33,435 bases of DNA from a virus. Each line of letters starts with the position of its first letter. The first letter of the stretch is position 1. Shown in pieces: positions 1 to 33,434 of the stretch. The translations under genes and the position numbers were made by a program. The notes below the pieces were generated by a model. The model was not told the DNA's origin, ran no database searches, and saw only the letters and a list, made by a program, of their open reading frames with translations. The DNA lies in the IMG/VR virus record IMGVR_UViG_3300031576_000222, positions 1 through 33,435 of that record, one strand, 5' to 3'.

Positions 1-99
1 CCTCGCCATGATGGCGCCGCGCCTGATCGAACTACGCCGCACGCTCAAGCGCACGGGCACGCTCTATCTCCACTGTGACCCGACGGCGAGCCACTACCT
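1..99 (+). repeat. Exact inverted repeat, left copy (partner 33019-33117)
   Basis: The first 99 bases are identical to the reverse complement of 33019-33117. The first mismatch is at base 100 (c against g). It encodes the shared methyltransferase stretch around [17 protein letters not shown]. The copy starts exactly at the window edge, so the true repeat may be longer. Confidence 0.95.
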
Positions 100-1345
100 C
101 AAGCTGCTGCTCGATGCGGTGTTTTCTCCGAAGCACTTCGTTGCGGAAATCACCTGGCAACGGACGAACGCGAGGGCAACTTCCGGTCGTTGGCCCCGCC
201 TTCACGACACGCTTCTTCAGTACAGCAAGGGCGACAGATACTTCTTCCAGCCGACGCGGATTCTCGCCGACGAGCGCAAGCTCCCACATACGCTAATAAC
301 GGGACGCGACGGCGAGAAGTATCAGACCTATGAACTGACCGGTCCGGGCGCGACCAAAGAAGGCGATAGCGGGAAGCCCTGGCGCGCCTTCGATCCGAAC
401 AAATACGGCCGACATTGGGCCAATAACTATCCGACGATGGATGCGTGGGACGCCGACGGCCTGATTCACTGGCCGAAGGACGGCGGTTTTCCACGTCGCC
501 GCGCTGCAACGCCGTTCGATCCCGGAGCCCGCGAGGTCGTCGTCGGTGACGTTTGGACCGACATAGATCGAATAAACCAGAGCGCCAAGGAGCGCCTCGG
601 ATACCCGACGCAGAAACCAGAGGCGCTCCTAGAGCGCATCCTCACGGCTTCGAGCAACGAAGGCGATACCGTGCTCGATCCGTTTTGCGGCTGTGGGACA
701 GCGGTCGCCGTCGCGCAAAAGCTCAACCGCCGCTGGATCGGCATCGACATCACGCACCTCGCCGTGAACTTGATCCGACACCGTCTCCGCGACGCGTTCG
801 GCGAAAGCCTCAAGTTCGACGTAGTCGGCGAACCTGTGAGCTTTGCCGACGCCCAGGAGCTTGCCGCCGCTGACCCGTACCAATTCCAGTGGTGGGCGCT
901 CGGTCTCGTCGGCGCTCGGCCCGTCGAGCAGAAGAAGGGCGCGGATCGTGGCATCGACGGACGGCTCTACTTCCACGACGACAAGAAGGGCGCGAAAACG
1001 AAACAGATCATTCTGTCCGTGAAGGCGGGCAAGGTGGACATCACGCAGCTTCGCGACCTGCGCGGAGTCATTGAACGCGAGAAGGCGGAGATCGGCGTTT
1101 TCATCGCATTCAACGAACCGACGCGCGCAATGATGAAAGAGGCCGCAAGCGCCGGGTTCTATGATTCGCCCGGCTGGCGGAAGAAGTACCCGAGGCTTCA
1201 GATTCTCACCGTGCGCGAGCTGCTCGACGGCAAGGGCATTGAGTACCCGCCGACGCGGGACGTGAACGTGACCTACAAGCGGCCGAAGAAGGTGAAGCGC
1301 GGGAAAGCGACGCCGACGTCGGAAATGTTCGGCGACGACGACTAG
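2..1345 (+). CDS. Beta-class DNA methyltransferase fused to Mrr-like nuclease domain, 5' partial
   Basis: Predicted to methylate an amino group of A or C in a specific DNA site. The reading frame is open to the window edge and the first in-frame ATG is at 8. The paralogue at the right end has about 108 more residues before this point, including motif IV DPPF, so the gene is cut by the edge. Counting from the ATG at 8, residues 1-40 match the paralogue. About 45-190 form a target-recognition region unrelated to it. [14 protein letters not shown] then leads into motif I, DPFCGCGT, at about 224-231. The order IV-TRD-I is the beta class. A C-terminal domain with GADRGIDG and, 22 residues after its Asp, SVKAG fits a restriction-endonuclease-like Mrr fold (D...SxK). 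It is the only real plus-strand gene and converges on the DUF3800 gene. Methylation specificity and cleavage activity cannot be read from sequence. Confidence 0.9.
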   Translation, partial: LAMMAPRLIELRRTLKRTGTLYLHCDPTASHYLKLLLDAVFSPKHFVAEITWQRTNARATSGRWPRLHDTLLQYSKGDRYFFQPTRILADERKLPHTLITGRDGEKYQTYELTGPGATKEGDSGKPWRAFDPNKYGRHWANNYPTMDAWDADGLIHWPKDGGFPRRRAATPFDPGAREVVVGDVWTDIDRINQSAKERLGYPTQKPEALLERILTASSNEGDTVLDPFCGCGTAVAVAQKLNRRWIGIDITHLAVNLIRHRLRDAFGESLKFDVVGEPVSFADAQELAAADPYQFQWWALGLVGARPVEQKKGADRGIDGRLYFHDDKKGAKTKQIILSVKAGKVDITQLRDLRGVIEREKAEIGVFIAFNEPTRAMMKEAASAGFYDSPGWRKKYPRLQILTVRELLDGKGIEYPPTRDVNVTYKRPKKVKRGKATPTSEMFGDDD

Positions 1346-2211: not shown

Positions 2212-2462
2212 GGCGCACCCCCACGGACGCGCCCGGTTCTAGCCGCCCCGGAGCCTATATGCCCTGGGTGTCTACAGCAACAGAATCGCCTGTCGAACAG
2301 GCTCCAGAGCCGGAACCGCTCGGCCTGCCATGGCAGCAGGGCTGGCTTTCCGGCCGGGCCGAAGCCTATATGCCCTGGGTGTCGATTCAAACAGAATCGC
2401 CGCCCGGCTGCGTGACGCCAGTCCGGCTTGTAGTCCACGCCGTAGGGCGGATCCGTCACCAT
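2208..2462 (-). pseudogene. Remnant of the methyltransferase part of a ParB-methyltransferase gene
   Basis: The frame begins MVTDPPYGVDYKPDWRHAAG, the catalytic motif IV (DPPY) and following residues of phage ParB-methyltransferase fusions. After HAAG the similarity to the family stops. The remaining ~65 residues are encoded by a repeat-containing insert (2253-2401) and contain none of the later methyltransferase motifs: no TRD and no FxGxG motif I. The fragment lies one frame away from the ParB-like ORF just upstream, and the two join if one G is added to the G9 tract. It is therefore best read as a broken, non-catalytic remnant. A sequencing error could explain the frameshift but not the missing C-terminal part. 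Confidence 0.7.
2253..2401. repeat. Pair of 38-bp direct repeats flanking a palindromic core
   Basis: Copies lie at 2253-2290 and 2364-2401, 111 bp apart. The first 20 bases (gcctatatgccctgggtgtc) and the last 11 (acagaatcgcc) are identical, with a variable 7-bp middle, giving 33 of 38 matches. Between them are the 12-bp palindrome ctgccatggcag and short gccggaa/ttccggc arms. In the plus frame both copies read AYMPWVS..TESP. The segment sits where methyltransferase similarity ends, so it looks like an inserted repeat element. Confidence 0.75.
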
Positions 2463-3064
2463 GAGCGCCGCCCCCCCCCGACGCCAAAGCAGCGGGCGAC
2501 GTCGGCCGCGACCGTAGCGTCCCCGCAGCCTAGGCGGTGGTCGCGAAGCCGCCAGAGATCGCCGAGGGCCGAGACAACCTTTTCGACGGGTTCCCCAACG
2601 TCGTCCTCATCCTCGGTCGCGCCCGACGGTGGATCTTCGGTTGGGACAGGATCGGCATCCGCCGCCACGTCCGGCTCGAAGTCGTCCGGCGTGATGAGGT
2701 CGGCATCGTCCCAGCCGCTCGCCGCGAGCTCGGCCAGTTCCTCCGCCAACATGCCAGCGTCCCACGTCGCCCGCTCCGCCAACGCGTTGTCGGCAAGGCG
2801 AAAGGCGCGAGCCCGAACGTCCGCGAGATCGTTGACACGGATGACGGGAACCTCAGCCAAACCGGCGAGGGCAGCGGCCGCCAGTCGCCCTCGCCCCGCA
2901 ACGAGCATCCCGTCGCGGTCCACGAGCAGCGGTACGTTGAAACCGAACTCGCGGATTGATCGGGCCAGATCGGCGACTTGTTTGTCCGAGTGTACGCGCG
3001 GGTCGCGGTCGTACGCCCGCACCTGGCCGAGCGGCCAGTACTCAATCTCTAGGCGCTCGGCCAC
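2456..3064 (-). CDS. ParB/sulfiredoxin-like N-terminal domain of a ParB-methyltransferase (frameshifted)
   Basis: From a GTG at 3064 the product starts with AERLEIEYWPLGQVR, a typical beginning for the ParB-like domain fused to phage methyltransferases. HSDKQVADLARSIREFGF (about 26-43) and LVAGRGRLAAAALAG (about 54-68, the ParB GxxR-type motif) follow. An acidic linker leads to GDLWRLRDHRLGCGDAT at about 170-186, which normally precedes the DPPY catalytic motif. Here the frame ends at RRSW after the G9 tract. The long ORF extends further upstream, but GTG 3064 begins 8 nt after the stop of the upstream lipoprotein gene and matches family starts. The family usually directs DNA methylation. This copy has lost the catalytic half, so any remaining role would be DNA binding only. 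It is unlikely to be the partition ParB that recognises the parS at 15165. Confidence 0.75.
   Translation of the reverse strand: MAERLEIEYWPLGQVRAYDRDPRVHSDKQVADLARSIREFGFNVPLLVDRDGMLVAGRGRLAAAALAGLAEVPVIRVNDLADVRARAFRLADNALAERATWDAGMLAEELAELAASGWDDADLITPDDFEPDVAADADPVPTEDPPSGATEDEDDVGEPVEKVVSALGDLWRLRDHRLGCGDATVAADVARCFGVGGGRRSW
2471..2479. other. C9/G9 homopolymer at a frameshift junction
   Basis: On the coding (minus) strand the frame reads GTC GGG GGG GGG CGG and then terminates. With ten G, or a -1 slip, it reads GTC GGG GGG GGG GCG GCG CTC ATG GTG ACG GAT CCG and enters the DPPY frame. Sequencing error, phase variation and slippage are all possible. Confidence 0.8.
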
Positions 3065-3071
3065 GTGTGTT

Positions 3072-3584
3072 CTAGCGCAGGCAGACGGCGAAGCCTTTCG
3101 TGGCTCCGCTCTTGTCGCGAACAAGAGCCTCTAGGACGAGCGGGCCCGTGAGCACCCGAGCCGGCACCTGCGGGTATACCCCGAGCCCGAGGGACGTCGC
3201 GCTGTCCGCGCATTGGCCGTCCGCGCTCCACTGCGCCACGTGCGCGCCGCAAGCGCCGCCGGCCCCGAGGCAGGCACGCAGCGTCAGATCGACGCCGCCG
3301 TCCTCGCCAGCGCAGCTCCAAGACACGACCTTCCGCGATTCCCCGGCCGCCAGGATGAGCACCGGGTGACTGCGCCCCTTGTCGCTGCTGGAGACGTTCA
3401 CACAGAACGGCCGAACCGCCGGCGTTGCCACGATGGCCTTCCCGAGCGGCGCCGCCGTGACCGCGACCGGAGCGTTGGGCTTCCCCTCTACCGCGTCCTC
3501 AGCCGCCGCACGACCGCATCCGATTGCTAGCGCCATGACCGCCAAAAGGACGGCCGCCCGAACACTTCCGCTTTTCTGGTTCAT
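3072..3584 (-). CDS. Predicted lipoprotein of unknown function
   Basis: A 170-residue product with a charged start, a hydrophobic core and a lipobox-like LAIGC at about residues 19-23, consistent with signal peptidase II processing and lipid anchoring. The mature part has four or more cysteines (SCAGEDGG, CLGAGGAC, GQCAD, AVCLR) and looks like a small beta-rich extracellular domain. I do not recognise the family. The ATG at 3584 is preceded by GGGGAGGG, a strong ribosome binding site. It sits at the end of the exported-protein block, just before the ParB-like gene. In prophages, phage-encoded lipoproteins can act as receptor-blocking superinfection exclusion factors. That role is a possibility here, not something the sequence shows. 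Confidence 0.75.
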   Translation of the reverse strand: MNQKSGSVRAAVLLAVMALAIGCGRAAAEDAVEGKPNAPVAVTAAPLGKAIVATPAVRPFCVNVSSSDKGRSHPVLILAAGESRKVVSWSCAGEDGGVDLTLRACLGAGGACGAHVAQWSADGQCADSATSLGLGVYPQVPARVLTGPLVLEALVRDKSGATKGFAVCLR

Positions 3585-12833: not shown

Positions 12834-15800
12834 CTACGCGTCCTTGTACCACGCGATCGCAGTGGCCGAGCCGGGCGACTGGCCGTACGTGATCGTCTGG
12901 TTCGTGCCGCCGCTCAGCGTGAACTCGTTCGGGCCCGGGGCCGATGCCTTGCGCCACCGGATGCCCTGCTGCACGAAAATGAAAACGTCATTCGTGCCGG
13001 TGAGATCCGGCTGGGTCGGGAGCGCCGTGTTAGATGCGAGCTTGCGGGGCTTGTACCCGCCCGTGACGCCGCCGGCCTCGAGCACCTCGACCCGGTTCGT
13101 CAGTCCGTGGAGGCCGCCCGTCGTGATGCCGTCGTCTACGGCGACGGTGAACTCGTGCACCGTGCTGCCGTCCTTCCACAGGCCGGGGCCGCTAGTCGCC
13201 CCGAGGCGGGACACCGAGACGAACGCGATCTCGACGATGCGCCCCGGCTCGAAAATTGTGTACCAGTCGATCGTCTGTCCGGCTACCGCCGCGAAGTCGA
13301 TGGTCGCGGCTCCCGCCGGGAAAAGCGTCGCCGCGTCCTGGTACCGCCAATAGATACGAACGCCGACGATGAGCGCCTCGGCGACGTCGCCCGTTGGCAC
13401 GACGGCACGGAACCCGACGCGCGTCGCAATGGTGATGGCCACTTGGCCGAGAATCTCGATCAGTTCGGGCGCTGGCGGGCTGGTCCAACGGTAGTCGGGC
13501 AGCTCCTCGGGGAGAAGGTCCGGGATGGCTGTCGTCGGTGCGTAGACGGTCGGGTCCGCCGGCTTCTCCCGCAGTTGGTACTCGATGGCCGCGCCGCTTA
13601 CGCGCTCGTCTTGTTCGATGGTCCACTCCGTGGCCGTCGTGAGCCCGAGCGCCGCCGTCGTCACCGTGGCCCTGTCGCGGGGCACGGCCGCCCGGTTCGC
13701 CGTGCTCGCCCGAATATGCAGCCGTCGGTCCTTCGCCAGCCAGAGCGCGGCGTAGGCCCCGAGGCGGTCGGCCACCTCCCAGGTTCGAACGTAGGGCGCC
13801 TCGATCACAAGCAGCTCACGGCCAACAGTCGTCGCGACGGCACGCGCGAAGGTCCGATGCAGGTAGACCTGATCCGGCTTGTCCGGGGTCAACGTGCGCT
13901 TGTACTTCACGGAGACGGACTTCGGGATCTCGGAGAGGGGGGCGCGTCGAAGATTCGCCGCTTCTTCGATGTTCGACGCCCCGCCGTCAACCCACCCAAA
14001 GGCCCATGGCGATCCGGCCACCGCCTGCCAGCCAAACCCGGCCGTCCAGGTGCCGGCCCCTCGTGCAAGCGTGAGACCATAGACTTGCATTGTTGCAATG
14101 ACTTCGGACGCTACTTTCTCCTCCGTTAGGGCACCGCCGAAGAAGATGCCGAGGTCCCTAAGTATCGATTCGCACGCATCAAACGTCGTAGAATCGGCGA
14201 CCGAGTCGAGGCCGTAGACGTCGCTCTCGATGAACCGGCGGGCCCATCGTGCCGGGTTGCCGCGGGCGGTGAAATAGTGGGCCCGAACGTTGGCGGCCGT
14301 GAGGGCTACCGCGACGCCCTTTCGAATCACGAGCTCGTCGAGCTGGCCGATCAACCAAACTTCGAGCGAGGCCGAACTCAAGAGACTACCGAGCGCCCCC
14401 TCCGTTGTCGTGCCGTCGGGCAGCCCGTCCACGTAGAGCTCGACGTTGCCGCCCCGCACGACCTGCAGCCACACCTCGTGATACTTGCCGTCGCAGAGGT
14501 CGAGCGTGCTCGTAAGTACCCGATTGTTCGTGCCGTCCGATGCCGTCGCCGTTACCTTGCCGTTCGTTCCAATCTCGAACTTCCAGCCGATGCCCCCCGT
14601 AAACTTGCCGACGAGAATTTCGGTCGCCCCCGGATTCGTCACCCTCTTGAACCAGACGAGCACGCCGAGATCCTCGGTCACCGTCGCGTAGAGATCCGCG
14701 CTGTCGCCCTCCCGGACGAAGCCTGCCGCCTGGCTGAGCGCGCTCGTGCTGTTGCCGCTCTGGCCGGTCGCGTAGGTGAAGTCCTCGCTACCCGCCGCGT
14801 TGAACCAGACGAGCCTACCGAGCTTCCCGGCGAACTTCTGCCCGCCCCGGTTTTTCATCACGTAGAGCTTCGTCAGTGTGTTCGAGAGCGAGCCGACCAC
14901 CGCGACGCTCTTCGTGGCCTCGACGACGCCGTCCACCGTGAGCGTCATGAGATCGGTCGCCCGGTCGAGCTCGCCCTTGATCGTGTGGAAGCGGGTGTCG
15001 CCGTCGAGGCGGTTCAAGCCGTCGATTCGAATGCTCTCGGCCCCCGTCGCGCCTTGCACCCAGAAGTACGGCACGCCGCCCGTGCAGCCGAGCTCATACC
15101 CCATCGCCGAGCCGTTGCCCCACTTGGCAGCTATGGGCCCGTCGAGCGCTTTCACGATGTCTCTTGTTTCACGTGAAACAGTCGCCTCGATTCGGAAGGA
15201 AAGAAGGGCGGAAACGTCGAAAATCGTCGTCCCGCTTCCGGCCTCGAACTCCCCTCCGAGCTCGGGCAGTTTCCCGCTGTGCAGGGCCGAGGTCGGGATC
15301 ACCCCCTCGTCTACGTAGACGAGCGTCGCCTCGCTGCCGGCGAGCGCCGTCAGGTTGTGGCCGTTGCCGCTGCTATCGGTCGTGACGCCGCCGAAGAGCC
15401 AGGCGCCGATCGCGGTGCTCGGAAACAGCTCCGCCCCCTTCTTCTCGTCCGAGAGGCTGCGACGGAAGGCCCAGTGCCGGGTGACGGACGCCTCGGCAGT
15501 GTTGAACTCGGTTGCCTCGGCGTCGGCGTAGATCTGGCTGTTGATGTAGCGCCCGTCGGAGAAGCGCGCGATCACGACGCCCGTGTAAATGTCGTGCCGC
15601 TCCTCATAGGCCGAGGGCGTGACGATGCGCAGCCGGTTGTCGTCCCCGACCAGGTAGAGCGTGTTGATCCTGGTCCTGACGAACGCGTCGGCGGCGTCGT
15701 AGGCGATAGCCCAGTCGAACACGCGCGCCGCCTGGCCGTTCCGGATCGCGGTGGCGGGGAAGTGCTCACGCGTCCCGCCGATAACGACGGGCACGACGCC

Positions 15801-16292
15801 TCCCAGGCTGTCGGGCGGGATCTCCGCCGTCGCAACGCCGAACGTCGTGGTCGTGATGGCCGGCGGGATGAGCGTCCGTGCGGAGTCGGCCGCTGCGCTC
15901 GAGGCCGTCACTTGGACGGTTCGGCCACCCGCAACGTCGGCTCCTTGGCTCACGTCCTCGACGATCCCCTCGAAAATGAGCGTGCTCGCACCGTGACGGT
16001 CGAGCGTCGTGACCTCGTACACCCTGAGGACGGATCCGCGCGGGTCGTTACCCGCCGTCGGGTCTAGCCACGCGTTTAGGTCGCCGGAAATGTTCTCGAT
16101 TGCAAGAGCGCTGAGGTTCTCAATTTGGCCGGCATCGGCCGTGAGCACTCCGCGGACGATGCGCGGCTCGCCGAGAATGCGCGCCTCCCATTCTACGCCC
16201 CCCGAATAGCTGGCGATGGTCGAGAAGCGCCGCGTCCCACCGGGCGCCACGATCTCGACAAGGGACACGAGCTGGGGATTCGTCTCGGCCAT
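12834..16292 (-). CDS. Tail hub/tip attachment protein with two LamG insertions
   Basis: An 1152-residue product. Residues 1-260 (TRRFSTIASYSGGVEWEARI, VLRVYEVTTLDRHG.STLIFEGIVEDVS) look like the hub/attachment domain of siphovirus tail tips. Two LamG/concanavalin-like domains interrupt it. The first is at about 285-500, with AWLFGGVTTDSSGNGHNLTA and LTVDGVVEATKS. The second is at about 515-665, with VWFKRVTNPG, KYHEVWLQVV and VELYVDGLPDG. The hub fold resumes from about 680 (RWARRFIESDVYGLDSVADSTTF) with a gp27/baseplate-like region, and a beta-rich C-terminus follows. It would sit at the tail tip, joining tube, fibres and host surface, and the LamG domains could give initial glycan binding. 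ATG at 16292. It follows the distal tail gene and precedes the terminator. A consensus parS lies at codons 371-376. Confidence 0.82.
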   Translation of the reverse strand: MAETNPQLVSLVEIVAPGGTRRFSTIASYSGGVEWEARILGEPRIVRGVLTADAGQIENLSALAIENISGDLNAWLDPTAGNDPRGSVLRVYEVTTLDRHGASTLIFEGIVEDVSQGADVAGGRTVQVTASSAAADSARTLIPPAITTTTFGVATAEIPPDSLGGVVPVVIGGTREHFPATAIRNGQAARVFDWAIAYDAADAFVRTRINTLYLVGDDNRLRIVTPSAYEERHDIYTGVVIARFSDGRYINSQIYADAEATEFNTAEASVTRHWAFRRSLSDEKKGAELFPSTAIGAWLFGGVTTDSSGNGHNLTALAGSEATLVYVDEGVIPTSALHSGKLPELGGEFEAGSGTTIFDVSALLSFRIEATVSRETRDIVKALDGPIAAKWGNGSAMGYELGCTGGVPYFWVQGATGAESIRIDGLNRLDGDTRFHTIKGELDRATDLMTLTVDGVVEATKSVAVVGSLSNTLTKLYVMKNRGGQKFAGKLGRLVWFNAAGSEDFTYATGQSGNSTSALSQAAGFVREGDSADLYATVTEDLGVLVWFKRVTNPGATEILVGKFTGGIGWKFEIGTNGKVTATASDGTNNRVLTSTLDLCDGKYHEVWLQVVRGGNVELYVDGLPDGTTTEGALGSLLSSASLEVWLIGQLDELVIRKGVAVALTAANVRAHYFTARGNPARWARRFIESDVYGLDSVADSTTFDACESILRDLGIFFGGALTEEKVASEVIATMQVYGLTLARGAGTWTAGFGWQAVAGSPWAFGWVDGGASNIEEAANLRRAPLSEIPKSVSVKYKRTLTPDKPDQVYLHRTFARAVATTVGRELLVIEAPYVRTWEVADRLGAYAALWLAKDRRLHIRASTANRAAVPRDRATVTTAALGLTTATEWTIEQDERVSGAAIEYQLREKPADPTVYAPTTAIPDLLPEELPDYRWTSPPAPELIEILGQVAITIATRVGFRAVVPTGDVAEALIVGVRIYWRYQDAATLFPAGAATIDFAAVAGQTIDWYTIFEPGRIVEIAFVSVSRLGATSGPGLWKDGSTVHEFTVAVDDGITTGGLHGLTNRVEVLEAGGVTGGYKPRKLASNTALPTQPDLTGTNDVFIFVQQGIRWRKASAPGPNEFTLSGGTNQTITYGQSPGSATAIAWYKDA
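15165..15180. promoter_or_regulatory. parS: Exact consensus bacterial parS site
   Basis: TGTTTCACGTGAAACA is a perfect 16-bp palindrome identical to the conserved chromosomal parS bound by ParB/Spo0J in most bacteria. It is inside the hub gene, in the first LamG domain. The overlapping codons ACT GTT TCA CGT GAA ACA AGA all end in A or T, unlike the GC-ending codons around them, which suggests selection on the DNA. No ParA or segregation-type ParB gene is in the window. Confidence 0.85.
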
Positions 16293-17164: not shown

Positions 17165-20100
17165 CTAGAGTCCGCCGAGCATGCGGCGAAGGTCGGCCTT
17201 GAGTGACGCGTCGAGCATCGCGAGGCGCAGCAAGCGGCGTAGCTCCCTCACCTTCTCCATTTCCTCGATAGCGTCGCCTCCGCGCCTTCTCCCCTTGCCG
17301 TCGTCACGCGCGTCGCGCGACTCGGCTTCGTGGTACTCGATGACCGGCTGAATGCTGGCCGACACGCTCCGGCGACCGAGCGCCGCCTCGAGCCGCGTGA
17401 GGATAGCGCCGACGTCGCCGTCGTCGGTGCGCGCCCTCCGAATCTCGTCGATGCCGACGGCGCTCCGAATGATGCCGGGCAGCCGTGCCAGCGGTATGAC
17501 CGCCTCGGGGCCGTGAAGGATGGCCGGCTGAAAGCCGCGCGTCACGATGCCGCCGGAGGCGAGGCCGATGGCCGTGAACGGATCCTTTTGCGCGCCGTCG
17601 TGGCCGACTTCGAAAATGTTGATGCCCTGGTCGAGACGCTGGAGCACCTTCGTCATGGTGTCGCCGATCGGTTTCAGGTCGTCGAGGGAGCCAGCCTTGT
17701 CGGCCGTCTTCTCCGCCGCCTTGAGCGAGCGACGCTGCAGCTCTGCCTGCGCACCGACCATGAACTCGCGCAGCAACCGGAGCTGCTCGGCCGCCGCTTC
17801 CTGCACGTCCCGGATGCGTTCCTGGATGGCGTCGCGCTCGGCCTCTTTTGCCGCCGCCTCGCGCGCCACGTCACTCAGCGCATTCACGACGCTGCCGCGC
17901 AGCAGCTCGAACTCGGGGCTTCCCGGTCCGATGCCCGCCTGTTCGGCGAGCTCGAGCAGTGCCGGGCCGAGTTGAATCAACGCCTGCGCGCCCGCGAGTC
18001 GCTCGGCATCCGTGCCGGTTCGGAAATCATCGAGCGCTTCGAGGAAGCGGCGCTCGGTCGCGGCAAACTCCTTCGGCCCCTTGTCGAAAGAATCGAGGCC
18101 GGCGAACTGCACCTGATCGAGTGCGTCGCGCGCGCTGTCTGTCAGGCTCGCCCATTCCTCAACAAGCTGTAGCTGCGACTCGAGCACCGCTATCTCTGCG
18201 TTCGCCTTCGCCGCCGTCGCCTCGGCCACGGCCTGAAGCTGATCGACGAGGCCCTTGAGATCGTCGTCCGACAGTTTCTTGATGCTCTTTCGGAACGCCT
18301 TCAGCCCGACGTCCTCCAAGTCGAAGCCCGGCTCTGTCAACGCGCGGCGCCCAACGATTTTGAAGAGCGCGGCAAACGCCGGTCCGAGCGTCTTCTCGGC
18401 GTTCGCGATCGCAGTCGCCTGCGCATCTGTCGCCGCCTTTACGGCGAGCTCTAGGCGCGCTTGTATGCCGTCGCCCGTGAGGTCGGCGATGAGCAAGTCG
18501 ATTGCGTCCAGCGCCTTGCCGGCCGCCTGCGCCGCCTGCGCGAAGCTCGTCACGGCAAGCTGAATGCGTCGCTGTAGCTCCGCGAACTGCTCGAGCAGCG
18601 GCCCCATCTCCTCCGCCCTCCGCGCGAGCGCTTCGAAGTCCGTGCCCATCGTTGCGACAATTTCGTCGATCGCCGACGTCGCCTCGCCCGCCGTGAGCGT
18701 GCCCTCGGCGAACTTCTTCAGCACGCCCTCGACACCAACCTCCAAGTTTCGGAACAATGGCCCGAGAAGATTCTCGAAGTCCGTGACCTTAAGGAACGCC
18801 TCCGACAACGTCTTCTGCGCGCGCTCGGCCACGGCCTTCGTCAGTGATGCACCGAGGGCCTCCAACGCCTGCTTCGTCGGCTTGCCGCTGACGATCTCCT
18901 GCGTGCCGGCGAGGATGGCGGCGGCAAGAGAGCCGAACGCCTCCAACTCGATTTCGAGGCTGCGCTGAATCTGATCGCCGTCCACGGTAAGGATGTCACC
19001 GCGCTTCCTGAGGGCGGCCGGCGCCAGCCGCTCGGCTCGTCGCCGAAGCTGCTCGTCGCTTCCCGTTGCCCCGCCATCCTTCAGGTCGGCGAAGATCGCC
19101 TCGACCTCGCGGGCCAGCGCCTTTTTCTGCGACTCGACGAACGCGTCGTCCACGATCTTCGGGATGCTGTTCTTTACGGCCTGCGGCATTTCGGTGGAGA
19201 AGATGTTGACCATCTCCTCGACGGCGTCCTCTAGCGGCAGCAAGAAGCCTTCCTTGATGAGGCGTCGCAGCGCCTCCTTCTCCGTCTCCCCTTCGACCGC
19301 GCGCACTTTCCGCTTCTGCTCGGGCGTCAAGTCCTCGAAGTCGGTTGTCCGCGTCGGCTGGAACTTCCGCCCCGTCCGTATGTCGGCCCCCCTGATTTCG
19401 TCCACGATACGAAGAAACTGCGCCTGCATCTTCGTGATCGCATCGCCTAACCCCTCGGAGAACGCCCCGGCGACGGCCGTGCTCACCTTGTCCTGCTTGT
19501 CGGGGAAGTCCTCGAGGATGGATTGGAGCTGGCCACCGAAGATCGAAAACAGCCGGCGGTTGCCCGGTCCGCCAAACGGCGTGTCGCCAGACGACGCGAG
19601 CAGCGCGAGTACGCGCGCACGGTCGCTCACCGGCTTGCCCTCGTCGAGTCTGTCACCGAGCGTCGGCACTTCCTTGCTCACTACCTTCTCGCGACCGAGC
19701 GCCCGCAGTTCCTCGGGCGTGATGATGCCGAGGGTCTTCACGAGCAGCTTCGTCAGGCCGTCGCGCACGTCCTTCTTCACGTCGTCGGCGAGCTTCGGCG
19801 AGAACGCCTTGATGATGCTCGCGAGGATTGCCGCGAACACGATCAGCACCGCCGCGGCAAAGGCGGCGTACCCGGCCGTCGCCGCCCCGCCGGTGGCCCC
19901 CGCTGCGCCCTCCGCGCCGCCTGCTGCGCCCGCAGCCTCGCCGCCAGCCGCCGGGGCACCGGCGCCCGCCGCACCCGCCTCCTTGCCGCCGAAAATACCG
20001 CCTATTCCCTTGAACGTTTTGAACAGCGACGCCAGGCTCTTGAAGCCGCCGACGAGCCCACGAAACGTCGCCCCGAAGGTCGTCAGGATGCGCGAGCTGA

Positions 20101-22513
20101 GCGCGGTGAAGAGTCCGCCTATGCCGCCGACGTTCTCTTCGAACGGCGTGTCCAGTTTCTTGATCTTCTCCGATATGACGTCGGAGAACATCCGGGCGAA
20201 CCCGGCGACGACCGCGTCGCGTACGCCGCCCACGATGTCCTTCAGCTTCCGCGTTCCCTGTACGATGCCCGTGAACGTGTCCTCGATGATCTGCGAGAAG
20301 GTTCGCGAGAGCGCCTCGCCCACGGTCTCTATCGACCCTGCGACCTTCTCGTTCTCCGACTTCACCGTCTTCGCAAACTTCGCGTAGCGCGCCTCGGCCG
20401 TATCGATCGTCGTCTCGAGCGTCCCGAGCGCGGCAATCTGTTTGCGAAGCGAGTCGGCTTGCGCGAGTTCCGCGGCACCTTGCGCGCCGGTGGCTTCGAT
20501 CACCCGCAGCTTCGCCTCGAGCACCCCGCGCTCGGCAACGATGAGGAGGTGGTCGGCAGCAACACTCGTCGCGATCGCGTCTTGTACTTTCTTCTGGCTC
20601 CCGGCGAGGGCGTCCGTCGTGCCGATCTGGTCTTGGAGCTGTTCGACGACGGCCTTCGCGGCCTCCGCCTGCGCCTTGGCACCGTCCACTGCGAATTCGA
20701 ACGGCGCTGCGGCTGCGCTCAACGCCTTCGACAGCTTGTCCGTGTCGTCACCGAGATCCCCGATGCCCTCGCCGAGGCCGTCAATGACTGGGCGAGCCTT
20801 CGTCGCCTCGGCGGCAATGAGTCCGAACTCCTCCGCCAACCGGCGGTTCGTCGCCGAGAGCGCGATGCCCTTCTCACGGAAAAACTCGAGCCGGCGCGCC
20901 AGGTGCTCTATCCCGCCACCCTCTTCGGACGTACCGTTCTGGTCGGACGTGCCCTCCAGGAACGATCGCGTGAGTAGGTCGTTCTGCACTGCCGCGGTCT
21001 TCGCTGCTTCGCCGGCTGCGTAGAGACGGGCCACGACTTCGTCGGTCGCATCACGGGCAGCCGCGACGTCGGCGGTGTACTCGTCCCACACCGTCTCGAA
21101 CATCGGCGTGCCAGCCGCGACCCTCTCGGCAAACTTTTCGTCGCGTATCCAGTCCGGCATCGCATCGTTGGCTTTCGTCATCATCGAGTCGAAGAAGGCA
21201 AACCACGCGTTGAAGTACGCCTTCGGAACATCGGACGGCTTGAAGTTGAAGGCGGCCCTGAGGGCTGGTCCAACCTGCCCGGCCGCCGTGATGAGCGCGG
21301 CCATGGCCGGAATGAGCGTGTCCACGAGCGTCGTCGTGAACGAGCCCAGGTCGTCCGTCGCATCGTTTAGGCCGTCGGCGAGCGCGCGCATGACCTCCGT
21401 GATGCCGGGTGCGAGCGCATCGAACGCCAGTTCCTCTACGCGGCGCTTTGCGTTCTCGAGAAGCTGCGTCTGACTCTCGACCGTCGCGCTCGCCTTCGTG
21501 AATCCGTCCTCGAGCTGTTCCGTGCCGTCGCGCATATCGTGCGCGGTCTCGATCCAGAGTCGCCCCTCGTCGCTCGCGGTTGCGAGGGCGACCGCGAGGG
21601 CCTTCGGGCCGCCCACTGCTCGCTGAAGCACGGCGGTGTTCTTACCTGCCTCCTCCGTCACCCGGACGAGCGCGCCGGCGAGGCCGAGTTGCTCGATTGC
21701 CGCGCGCCCCGTTTTGAAACCGGCTGCGTCGAGAAGCGCGAGCATTTCCTTTCCGGGCCGGTTGAATGCGCTGATCACCCTCGTGAGACCGGACTGCGCA
21801 TCCGTGGCGCTGAGTCCCTGCTGGGTGAGTGCGGCGTAGCCGGCAGCGAGATCCTCGAAGTCTAGGCCGAGCCGCTTCACGTTGAATGAGGCGGCGCCAA
21901 TCTGTGTGCCGAGCTGCCCTATCTCGAGCGCCCCCTTCCGGGCTGCGATGAACAGCGCATTCGCGACCTGTTCCGCGTCGTCGGCCGTGCGGTTGAACCG
22001 CGTCAACGTTCCGGCGACCGTGTCGGCGGCGACCTCGACCGTGATGAAACCGGCCGTCGCCAGCTTCGTGCTCGCCCCGAGAATCTTGATGGCCGCGCCC
22101 GCATCTTCAAAACCGCCAGCAACGATCTTGAGTGCACCGGCACCAAGGTCGTCGGCGTCTTTCGGAACCGTCTTTAGAAGCTGGAGAACCTCCTCGCGCA
22201 GCGCGCCAATGGCCGGCGCGGCGTTCCCCCTGATCTCAGCGGCCGCCTTGGCGAACGTCGTCTCAAGGCGCGCCCCCTCCCTGACTGCGCCTGCTAGGTA
22301 GGCGATGGCCGGACGCGCAAACTTAGAGACCAGCTCGAGCCCTTGGTTGAGCGTGACGACGCTCGCGCCGAACCGACCAAACGAGCCGCTCGCCTTGCCC
22401 GCCTTGCCGGCGACGCTCTCGATCTCTTTCCCGGTCTCGCGGAGAATCCGAACGGCACCCGAGTCGGTGACCTCGAGCTTCAGGCTTAGGCTGTCAACAG
22501 TTTTAGAACCCAC
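17165..22513 (-). CDS. Tape measure protein
   Basis: A 1782-residue product whose length fixes tail length. At roughly 0.15 nm per residue, the known scaling, it implies a tail near 270 nm. The N-terminal third carries the TP901-type core (ARLETTFAKAAAEIRG, KGALEIGQLGTQIGAASFNVKRLGLDFEDLAAGYAALTQ). Long Ala/Glu/Lys-rich helices follow throughout. Around residues 845-905 a Gly/Ala-rich stretch leads into a transmembrane-like helix (AAFAAAVLIVFAAILASIIKAF), as in tape measures that help DNA cross the inner membrane. I see no lytic enzyme motif. The GTG start at 22513 has no good ribosome binding site and lies 19 bp after the stop of the frameshifted chaperone, so translational coupling is likely. 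It is the largest virion gene after the fibre. Confidence 0.93.
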   Translation of the reverse strand: MGSKTVDSLSLKLEVTDSGAVRILRETGKEIESVAGKAGKASGSFGRFGASVVTLNQGLELVSKFARPAIAYLAGAVREGARLETTFAKAAAEIRGNAAPAIGALREEVLQLLKTVPKDADDLGAGALKIVAGGFEDAGAAIKILGASTKLATAGFITVEVAADTVAGTLTRFNRTADDAEQVANALFIAARKGALEIGQLGTQIGAASFNVKRLGLDFEDLAAGYAALTQQGLSATDAQSGLTRVISAFNRPGKEMLALLDAAGFKTGRAAIEQLGLAGALVRVTEEAGKNTAVLQRAVGGPKALAVALATASDEGRLWIETAHDMRDGTEQLEDGFTKASATVESQTQLLENAKRRVEELAFDALAPGITEVMRALADGLNDATDDLGSFTTTLVDTLIPAMAALITAAGQVGPALRAAFNFKPSDVPKAYFNAWFAFFDSMMTKANDAMPDWIRDEKFAERVAAGTPMFETVWDEYTADVAAARDATDEVVARLYAAGEAAKTAAVQNDLLTRSFLEGTSDQNGTSEEGGGIEHLARRLEFFREKGIALSATNRRLAEEFGLIAAEATKARPVIDGLGEGIGDLGDDTDKLSKALSAAAAPFEFAVDGAKAQAEAAKAVVEQLQDQIGTTDALAGSQKKVQDAIATSVAADHLLIVAERGVLEAKLRVIEATGAQGAAELAQADSLRKQIAALGTLETTIDTAEARYAKFAKTVKSENEKVAGSIETVGEALSRTFSQIIEDTFTGIVQGTRKLKDIVGGVRDAVVAGFARMFSDVISEKIKKLDTPFEENVGGIGGLFTALSSRILTTFGATFRGLVGGFKSLASLFKTFKGIGGIFGGKEAGAAGAGAPAAGGEAAGAAGGAEGAAGATGGAATAGYAAFAAAVLIVFAAILASIIKAFSPKLADDVKKDVRDGLTKLLVKTLGIITPEELRALGREKVVSKEVPTLGDRLDEGKPVSDRARVLALLASSGDTPFGGPGNRRLFSIFGGQLQSILEDFPDKQDKVSTAVAGAFSEGLGDAITKMQAQFLRIVDEIRGADIRTGRKFQPTRTTDFEDLTPEQKRKVRAVEGETEKEALRRLIKEGFLLPLEDAVEEMVNIFSTEMPQAVKNSIPKIVDDAFVESQKKALAREVEAIFADLKDGGATGSDEQLRRRAERLAPAALRKRGDILTVDGDQIQRSLEIELEAFGSLAAAILAGTQEIVSGKPTKQALEALGASLTKAVAERAQKTLSEAFLKVTDFENLLGPLFRNLEVGVEGVLKKFAEGTLTAGEATSAIDEIVATMGTDFEALARRAEEMGPLLEQFAELQRRIQLAVTSFAQAAQAAGKALDAIDLLIADLTGDGIQARLELAVKAATDAQATAIANAEKTLGPAFAALFKIVGRRALTEPGFDLEDVGLKAFRKSIKKLSDDDLKGLVDQLQAVAEATAAKANAEIAVLESQLQLVEEWASLTDSARDALDQVQFAGLDSFDKGPKEFAATERRFLEALDDFRTGTDAERLAGAQALIQLGPALLELAEQAGIGPGSPEFELLRGSVVNALSDVAREAAAKEAERDAIQERIRDVQEAAAEQLRLLREFMVGAQAELQRRSLKAAEKTADKAGSLDDLKPIGDTMTKVLQRLDQGINIFEVGHDGAQKDPFTAIGLASGGIVTRGFQPAILHGPEAVIPLARLPGIIRSAVGIDEIRRARTDDGDVGAILTRLEAALGRRSVSASIQPVIEYHEAESRDARDDGKGRRRGGDAIEEMEKVRELRRLLRLAMLDASLKADLRRMLGGL

Positions 22514-29687: not shown

Positions 29688-30743
29688 TCACGCCAGCTCG
29701 ACCCACGCGGCCCCCGCCTCTCTAAGCCGCACGACGGTGCGAGTCGTCGCCTCCGCGACGACGACGTAGCGCGCTCCACCTTCCGAGAGCGCAACGGTGC
29801 GCACGCTCGCTTCGATGAGTTCCACGTAGAGGGCACCGGCCTCGACAAGCGTGACGTTCGCCGCGGTGATTGCATCCGGTACGTCCCCGCCGATCGTTAC
29901 GCCGTCGCCATCCGGTGCGCTCCAAACGGACGCCGCGACGACGCTTGCCCCGTTTGCCGCGCCTACGGTCCCGGCCGCCTGCGCGGACGTCCACGTAGAG
30001 AGCGCCGCGAGGCCCGAGGCCGAGACGGCACCAGCCGCACCCGTTCCGTTGGGGGCCGTCCAGGTAGAGAGCGCGACCACGGCGGTACCGGACGCGGACC
30101 CCGGAGCGCCGCTCGCCGCCGGGGCCTCGTACGTAGAGACGGCGGCCGTGCCGGCACCGGTTACGGCCTGGGGGGCACCGGCGCCGGCAGGTGCCGTCCA
30201 TGCGCTCGATACGAGCAGCCCGGCGCCGGCAACTAGGTTTTGACTGGACGCGTCAGGGGCGGTCCACGCAGACGCCGCGACAAGGCCGGCGCCGCTTGTC
30301 GCACCGGCGGCACCGGTGGGGACGGGGGCCGTCCACGGCGCCTCGGCCGCCACCCCGACCCCCGAGGCGGCACCGGGCGCCCCGGCGCCAGCGGGGACGG
30401 TCCAAGTAGAAGCGACAAGTACCCCGTCGCCCGACGTAATGGCGGAACTGTCGGCGACGGGGGCCGTCCAGGTAGACGTGACGAGCGAGGCCGTGCCATC
30501 GACGGCGCCGGCCGCCCCTGTCGCCGCTGGTGCGGTCCACGTCGAGACAGCGGCAACGCCGCTGCCCGATGCCGCCCCCACGGCGCTCGACCCCGCTGGG
30601 GCCGTCCAGGCCGTCGCGACGAGTAGGGCGACGCCGGTGACGATGCCGACGAAGCCCGAGCCGCCGGGCGAACTCCAGGAGGACTCGACGACGACGCCGT
30701 CGCCCGTCTGTTCGTTTTGGTCGAGAAGTAGGAGGAGCGACAT
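29688..30743 (-). CDS. Repeat-rich protein with 11-12 units of a 22-24 residue WTAP motif
   Basis: A 351-residue product. After MSLLLLLDQNEQTGDGVV it carries about eleven to twelve imperfect tandem units of 22-24 residues, each starting with TWTAP or a variant and continuing with small residues (PAGAGAPGAASGVGVAAEA type), at about residues 20-275. Trp and Pro recur at fixed positions, suggesting a solenoid or fibrous beta repeat. The C-terminal 70 residues are charged beta strands (TLVEAGALYVELIEASVRTVALSEGGARYVVVAE). It is likely to be a surface fibre or decoration. It has no signal peptide and a weak ribosome binding site, and I do not recognise the family. The DNA repeats are high GC and could vary in number by recombination. 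Confidence 0.7.
   Translation of the reverse strand: MSLLLLLDQNEQTGDGVVVESSWSSPGGSGFVGIVTGVALLVATAWTAPAGSSAVGAASGSGVAAVSTWTAPAATGAAGAVDGTASLVTSTWTAPVADSSAITSGDGVLVASTWTVPAGAGAPGAASGVGVAAEAPWTAPVPTGAAGATSGAGLVAASAWTAPDASSQNLVAGAGLLVSSAWTAPAGAGAPQAVTGAGTAAVSTYEAPAASGAPGSASGTAVVALSTWTAPNGTGAAGAVSASGLAALSTWTSAQAAGTVGAANGASVVAASVWSAPDGDGVTIGGDVPDAITAANVTLVEAGALYVELIEASVRTVALSEGGARYVVVAEATTRTVVRLREAGAAWVELA

Positions 30744-31778: not shown

Positions 31779-33434
<1,656 letters not shown>

Follow-up and report, generated by a model that had tools for sequence, protein, structure and literature searches.

A consensus chromosomal-type parS site in a probable tail gene of a GC-rich virus record, and its counterparts in other phages

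Described parS systems and the site in the window

Chromosomal-type parS sites inside virion genes have a precedent in the phages phi29 and B103. phi29 carries four copies, each with one mismatch: one in the connector gene 10, one in gene 15, one in gene 17 and one immediately following gene 16. The two copies that B103 keeps in genes 10 and 15 lie at codons homologous to those of phi29, and at about half of the identical residues the two phages use different codons. That Spo0J takes part in trapping phi29 DNA inside spores was published by Meijer et al. 2005, as cited in PMC9437464. Within the open-licence PMC literature, phi29 was the only phage found for which a role of a host-type parS is described, and no paper describing a wider phenomenon of phage-borne host parS was found there. 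A first-pass annotation of the DNA analyzed here had stated that no established case was known of a consensus host parS embedded in a phage tail gene. This statement must be revised, since phi29 and B103 both carry host-type sites in virion genes and a role has been described for those of phi29.

Two other known systems are instructive for comparison. The mobile element SGI1 exploits the ParABS system of IncC plasmids through mimics of parS, with the result that SGI1 is stabilized and the helper plasmid is destabilized (PMC10954446). SGI1 resembles the role proposed below for phages in that it has only a cis-acting site and borrows the ParA and ParB of another replicon; it thereby demonstrates that a borrowed ParABS can serve a mobile element. 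It differs from the window in that the sequence imitated is the parS of a plasmid rather than the chromosomal consensus, and in that binding and stabilization were shown by experiment. In the RedRock-type extrachromosomal mycobacteriophages, the parS read by ParB consists of clustered 8-bp direct repeats (PMC7157519). As in the role proposed here, phage DNA is partitioned via a ParB; however, these phages have their own ParA and ParB, and their sites are 8-bp repeat clusters rather than the universal palindrome. Bacterial chromosomal parS sites cluster near oriC, whereas the copy in the window lies in a phage record. Their 16-bp consensus, for which PMC12704722 cites Livny et al. 2007, is identical to the sequence found here.

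The window, by which we mean the whole stretch of 33,435 bases that was analyzed (65.6% GC), is one entire IMG/VR virus record. At positions 15165-15180 it contains a 16-bp palindrome that matches TGTTTCACGTGAAACA with 0 mismatches. By this match the site is a consensus chromosomal-type parS, as the first-pass annotation had recognized in assigning it to ParB/Spo0J. The check for mismatch variants proposed at that stage was run as a scan of the whole window, which revealed exactly one copy and no second one at up to 3 mismatches. A phage-borne cluster of parS sites in the window is thus ruled out by the single copy. Dinucleotide shuffles are expected to yield 0.05 matches even when 3 mismatches are allowed; the window has 1. 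For an exact copy, the expectation computed on this window ranges from 0.9e-6 (i.i.d.) to 6e-6 (third-order Markov), so the earlier figure of about 8 in a million, and fewer at high GC, was right.

The palindrome occupies codons 371-376 (T-V-S-R-E-T) of an ORF of 1152 amino acids on the minus strand (12834-16292). The minus-strand codons over the site are ACT GTT TCA CGT GAA ACA AGA, encoding T-V-S-R-E-T-R (aa 371-377). The run of seven A/T-ending codons that had been pointed out in this C/G-preferring gene is indeed the longest among the genes examined, the next comprising 5, and the GC3 of the gene is 0.85. Given the protein and the codon usage of the window, the probability of the site is 4.6e-7.

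The ORF is situated two genes downstream of that for a tape-measure protein of the TP901 type (17165-22513, minus strand), which was recognized by a domain/family match and marks a long-tailed phage module. A Laminin_G_3 (ConA-like lectin) domain is located at aa 539-633. From the synteny with the tape-measure gene and from this domain, the ORF probably encodes a distal-tail/tip protein. No PHROG or PDB match to it was obtained, and its description as a tail gene is therefore reasonable by synteny, with no family naming the ORF. Relatives of this gene were sought in viral contigs, INPHARED and GTDB and none were found; the tape-measure gene likewise had no relatives in the scans, INPHARED giving weak TMP matches only. 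Because no relatives were found, membership of the window copy in a selected class of sites rests on its improbability and not on conservation.

The window shares with phi29 and B103 a chromosomal-type parS inside virion genes. phi29, however, has four one-mismatch copies and a spore-forming host. The window, from a GC-rich phage that is known from sequence alone, has a single perfect copy, which lies in a tail gene. phi29 and B103 are without a ParB_N protein; the window has an ORF with ParB_N only.

Abundance of parS in phages relative to a matched palindrome

We compared the occurrence of exact parS with that of TTTGTCACGTGACAAA, a control palindrome whose dinucleotides are identical to those of parS. 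Exact parS is present in at least 120 IMG/VR stretches, some of which may be bacterial contamination, versus 11 for the control. At a GC content of at least 0.60 there are 18 loci among the 120 parS matches listed, versus none of the 11 control loci; 12 of these 18 GC-rich loci, among the matches listed, have a single site inside an ORF. The difference is also seen in the GenBank phages (INPHARED), in which 315 records have parS and 0 have the control; here the queries were an 18-base, A..T-flanked parS and an equally built control, matched over at least 16 bases. Flanks of T..G, as in the window, are found at 6 loci among the 120 exact-parS matches listed, and at least 119 IMG/VR stretches, those 6 loci included, carry parS with these flanks. 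As a rough estimate, which assumes that both IMG/VR listings share one order, about 2,000 or more IMG/VR records have exact parS.

These counts bear on the question of chance, i.e., on whether the window merely contains a 16-mer equal to parS that was noticed because the sequence is famous. Isolated chance copies do exist, as is clear from the 11 IMG/VR stretches with the control palindrome, and relatives of the tail gene that could show conservation were not found in the collections scanned. In addition, RaK2-like Klebsiella phages carry the parS variant TGTTCCACGTGGAACA in a baseplate gene. Against this, the control is much rarer than exact parS, most markedly so among the GC-rich loci and in the GenBank phages. 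By these ratios, a given GC-rich exact site has a chance of a few per cent at most of being background. Chance is rejected for phage parS as a class; for the window copy the rejection is not complete, and we consider coincidence very unlikely.

Most of the IMG/VR loci, and 8 of 15 named phages, have a single copy per carrier. The locations of the sites are varied, and include the genes for portal, TerL, connector, capsid protease, exonuclease and primase as well as intergenic positions; among the matches listed, 72 of 146 sites lie outside predicted genes, even though about 90% of the sequence is covered by ORFs. That sites are found in many genes and between genes favors a position-independent role over the control of a single gene. 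This distribution is also what weighs against the notion that the site acts not in inheritance but in transcription, with the ParB loaded there silencing or tuning the late genes or an antisense transcript nearby. Such an effect would be consistent with the many phage parS copies in late virion genes, and ParB-parS is known to repress neighboring genes in P. aeruginosa (PMC5521831), but the presence of sites in exonuclease and primase genes and in intergenic regions makes the location inconsistent. We regard transcriptional silencing as an unlikely explanation.

The identical 16 bases are found again in phages whose hosts belong to the Bacillota, the Actinomycetota and the Alphaproteobacteria, and the carriers include phages of Microbacterium, Gordonia and Listeria, hosts that are not known to form spores; KaiHaiDragon of Microbacterium foliorum and Woes of Gordonia terrae are examples. 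The Pseudomonas-type variant TGTTCCACGTGGAACA, in turn, is commonest in Pseudomonas phages (17 of 58 records), which fits a matching of the site to the host. Palindromes are typical operators, and the site might accordingly be read by a different DNA-binding protein of phage or host, e.g., a phage repressor. However, the common factor among such diverse phages is ParB-parS, and the host-type variant is seen most often in Pseudomonas phages; a reader other than ParB thus seems extremely improbable.

The variant TGTTCCACGTGGAACA also occurs in the RaK2-like Klebsiella jumbo phages JQ513383.1, MT708547.1, NC_019526.1 and NC_027399.1, and in three of the four the annotation of the gene that contains it is baseplate wedge. 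Enterobacteriaceae are not known to have a chromosomal ParABS; this RaK2-like copy is probably a chance site inherited within one cluster. Exact parS was observed, too, in small single-stranded-DNA phages, i.e., Microviridae such as phi-CA82 and Spiroplasma phage 4 (records include HQ264138.1, MG945524.1, M17988.1 and PQ006097.1). Records of bajarodino viruses have 10-12 matching places each, equivalent to about 5-6 palindromic sites.

Preservation of the site in portal and terminase genes

Preservation was assessed in two families, portal and TerL, in which the queries were picked for carrying parS but the relatives fetched were not. Portal relatives (the family being that of PHROG portal) were retrieved via conserved peptides away from the site, and those of TerL likewise without use of the site. 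All 8 of the portal relatives that are at least 77% identical and cover the position keep the site, 2 of them with one mismatch; 3 of these 8 loci are near-identical copies. In two relatives that are 75% identical (L253 and L254), the residues V-S-R-E-T are kept and the codons differ, and more distant portal relatives have other residues at this position. Six members of the portal clade share 374 invariant residues, and at only 53 of these the codon does not vary either. The parS site itself nevertheless forms the longest stretch of unvarying codons, 5 in number; the next stretch has 3. A second parS copy in the portal gene lies near the N-terminus, where the protein itself varies.

In the TerL family, four loci (L167, L421, L424 and L425) have the exact site and a fifth (L423) has it with one mismatch, and the site is found at the same place in L439, which is 64% identical. 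L422, which is 86% identical, has K-E-R-E-H at this position instead. Of the 259 residues that are invariant here, 33 have an unvarying codon as well, and the site forms a run of 6, with runs elsewhere not exceeding 2.

The excess over matched palindromes and the preservation at the synonymous level, in portal and TerL as well as between phi29 and B103, indicate that phage parS sites, as a class, are under selection on the DNA. The first-pass annotation had proposed such selection for the window itself; what these comparisons uphold is the proposal for the class of phage parS sites, through the excess over controls and the preservation of codons in portal and TerL. Beyond what is described for phi29, the site appears to be preserved synonymously in unrelated phages, in the genes for portal and terminase and in others.

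In a RecB-like exonuclease family (L155, L159 and L207, with 15 similar loci), all 18 members collected have the site at one and the same position. These members were chosen by the site and do not constitute an independent test.

The probable reader of the site and the remainder of the record

A search of the whole window with PF02195 gave a single match, to a ParB_N (CTPase-fold) domain in an orphan ORF at 2456-3124 (minus strand), which lies about 12 kb away from the palindrome. ParB_N alone passes the cut-off in Pfam, and matches to the NCBIfam partition models are weak and below the cut-offs. Among the PHROGs, phrog_498, which bears the label DNA methyltransferase, matches best, the match spanning positions 18-217 of 633; the ORF thus resembles the N-terminal part of the ParB-methyltransferase fusions of this family, the methyltransferase half of which was unmatched in the ORF. 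Domain searches identified no HTH or further domain in it. Because there is no recognizable HTH, and with ParB_N only and a ParB-methyltransferase family as best PHROG, this ORF is, as judged from its domain matches, unlikely to be the reader of parS.

ParA had no match among the window ORFs searched. A phage-encoded ParABS of the RedRock or P1 type, with genes for ParA and ParB beside a parS cluster, was considered, and what the window contains instead is no ParA match, an orphan ParB_N ORF and a single site. It might still be argued that we are dealing with a plasmid-like prophage: its own ParABS, of chromosomal specificity, would lie in a missing part of the genome, and the parS in the window would belong to this system. 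No portal or terminase was matched among the window ORFs searched, so the IMG/VR record is probably a fragment, and the ParB_N ORF is at hand. However, that ORF has the ParB_N domain only and is akin to methyltransferase fusions; ParBs of the RedRock type read 8-bp repeat clusters, not the palindrome (PMC7157519); and a lone site within a tail gene is unlike the layout of a par locus. Furthermore, at E <= 0.001, ParB_N was detected in only 4 of 99 parS-bearing IMG/VR records (window excluded) and in 3 of 15 named phages, and was absent from the other 95 and 12, respectively. We therefore consider a ParABS of the phage's own to be quite unlikely.

Because most carriers are without ParB_N, and because the ORF in the window has no recognizable HTH, host ParB is the parsimonious reader of the site. 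The virus record that bears the site has a tail module, is apparently a fragment, and contains as its sole ParB-like ORF one with ParB_N only. The analysis establishes the site and how improbable it is, together with the surplus of parS in phages and the maintenance of the class in other phages; that host ParB binds, that the phage benefits and that the orphan copy in the window is a member of the selected class is inferred. The first-pass annotation had put forward partition, SMC recruitment, titration of host ParB and silencing as candidate functions. Many unrelated phages carry parS and some of them preserve it, and therefore such phages probably borrow the sorting machinery of the host. 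Our preferred explanation, in which we have moderate confidence, is accordingly that the window site is a loading site for host ParB, by which the phage DNA hitchhikes on the host partition/SMC machinery.

Under this explanation, a cis-acting site would be kept by selection at the DNA level, written where the tail gene tolerates V-S-R-E-T. ParB-CTP loads at parS, closes as a clamp, slides, and can engage ParA and SMC (PMC12704722). In the same manner, the palindrome would serve host ParB-CTP as its point of loading, from which it would slide along the flanking phage DNA; the loaded ParB would link this DNA to the ParA- and/or SMC-based chromosome machinery of the host. Intracellular phage genomes may in this way be held, organized and inherited together with the host origin region. 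The arrangement would be of greatest use when lysis is delayed, i.e., in a carrier state, in pseudolysogeny, in an extrachromosomal prophage or during sporulation.

Loading of host ParB could also serve the phage differently, if the site were a decoy that titrates ParB during replication and disturbs host segregation to the advantage of the phage. Replicating phages reach high copy number. The mimics of SGI1, which stabilize their element and destabilize the helper plasmid, provide a parallel (PMC10954446). Most carriers, however, are single-copy, including those 8 of 15 named phages, and this suits loading better than titration; a decoy function is in our judgment decidedly unlikely.

We lean, with somewhat modest confidence, towards a widespread strategy in which ParB-less phages of several phyla, those of non-sporulating hosts included, keep host-type parS, the window being one such case. 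It seems similarly plausible, on balance, that within this strategy one or a few sites, in many cases accommodated in virion genes by synonymous codon choice, put the phage DNA under host ParB, ParA and SMC. The role in phi29 is explained by sporulation, and parS in phages of hosts that are not known to form spores would extend it beyond that setting. If true, the chromosome-segregation machinery of the host would act on phage DNA much more generally, and parS provides a simple sequence marker that yields directly testable phages.

The remainder of the record has further features. The ORF at 29688-30743 (minus strand) contains seven degenerate copies of a 59-nt repeat, at intervals of about 66-69 nt or of multiples of that length; it had no Pfam or PHROG match, and no relatives were found when they were sought. 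At 8-1345 (plus strand) and 31779-33431 (minus strand) there are N6/N4 methyltransferase genes with Mrr-like C-terminal domains. Relatives of the methyltransferase are 52-67% identical, belong to many, mostly environmental, phyla and point to no single host. The two genes, one at each end of the record and in opposite orientation, are 81% complementary over 814 nt.
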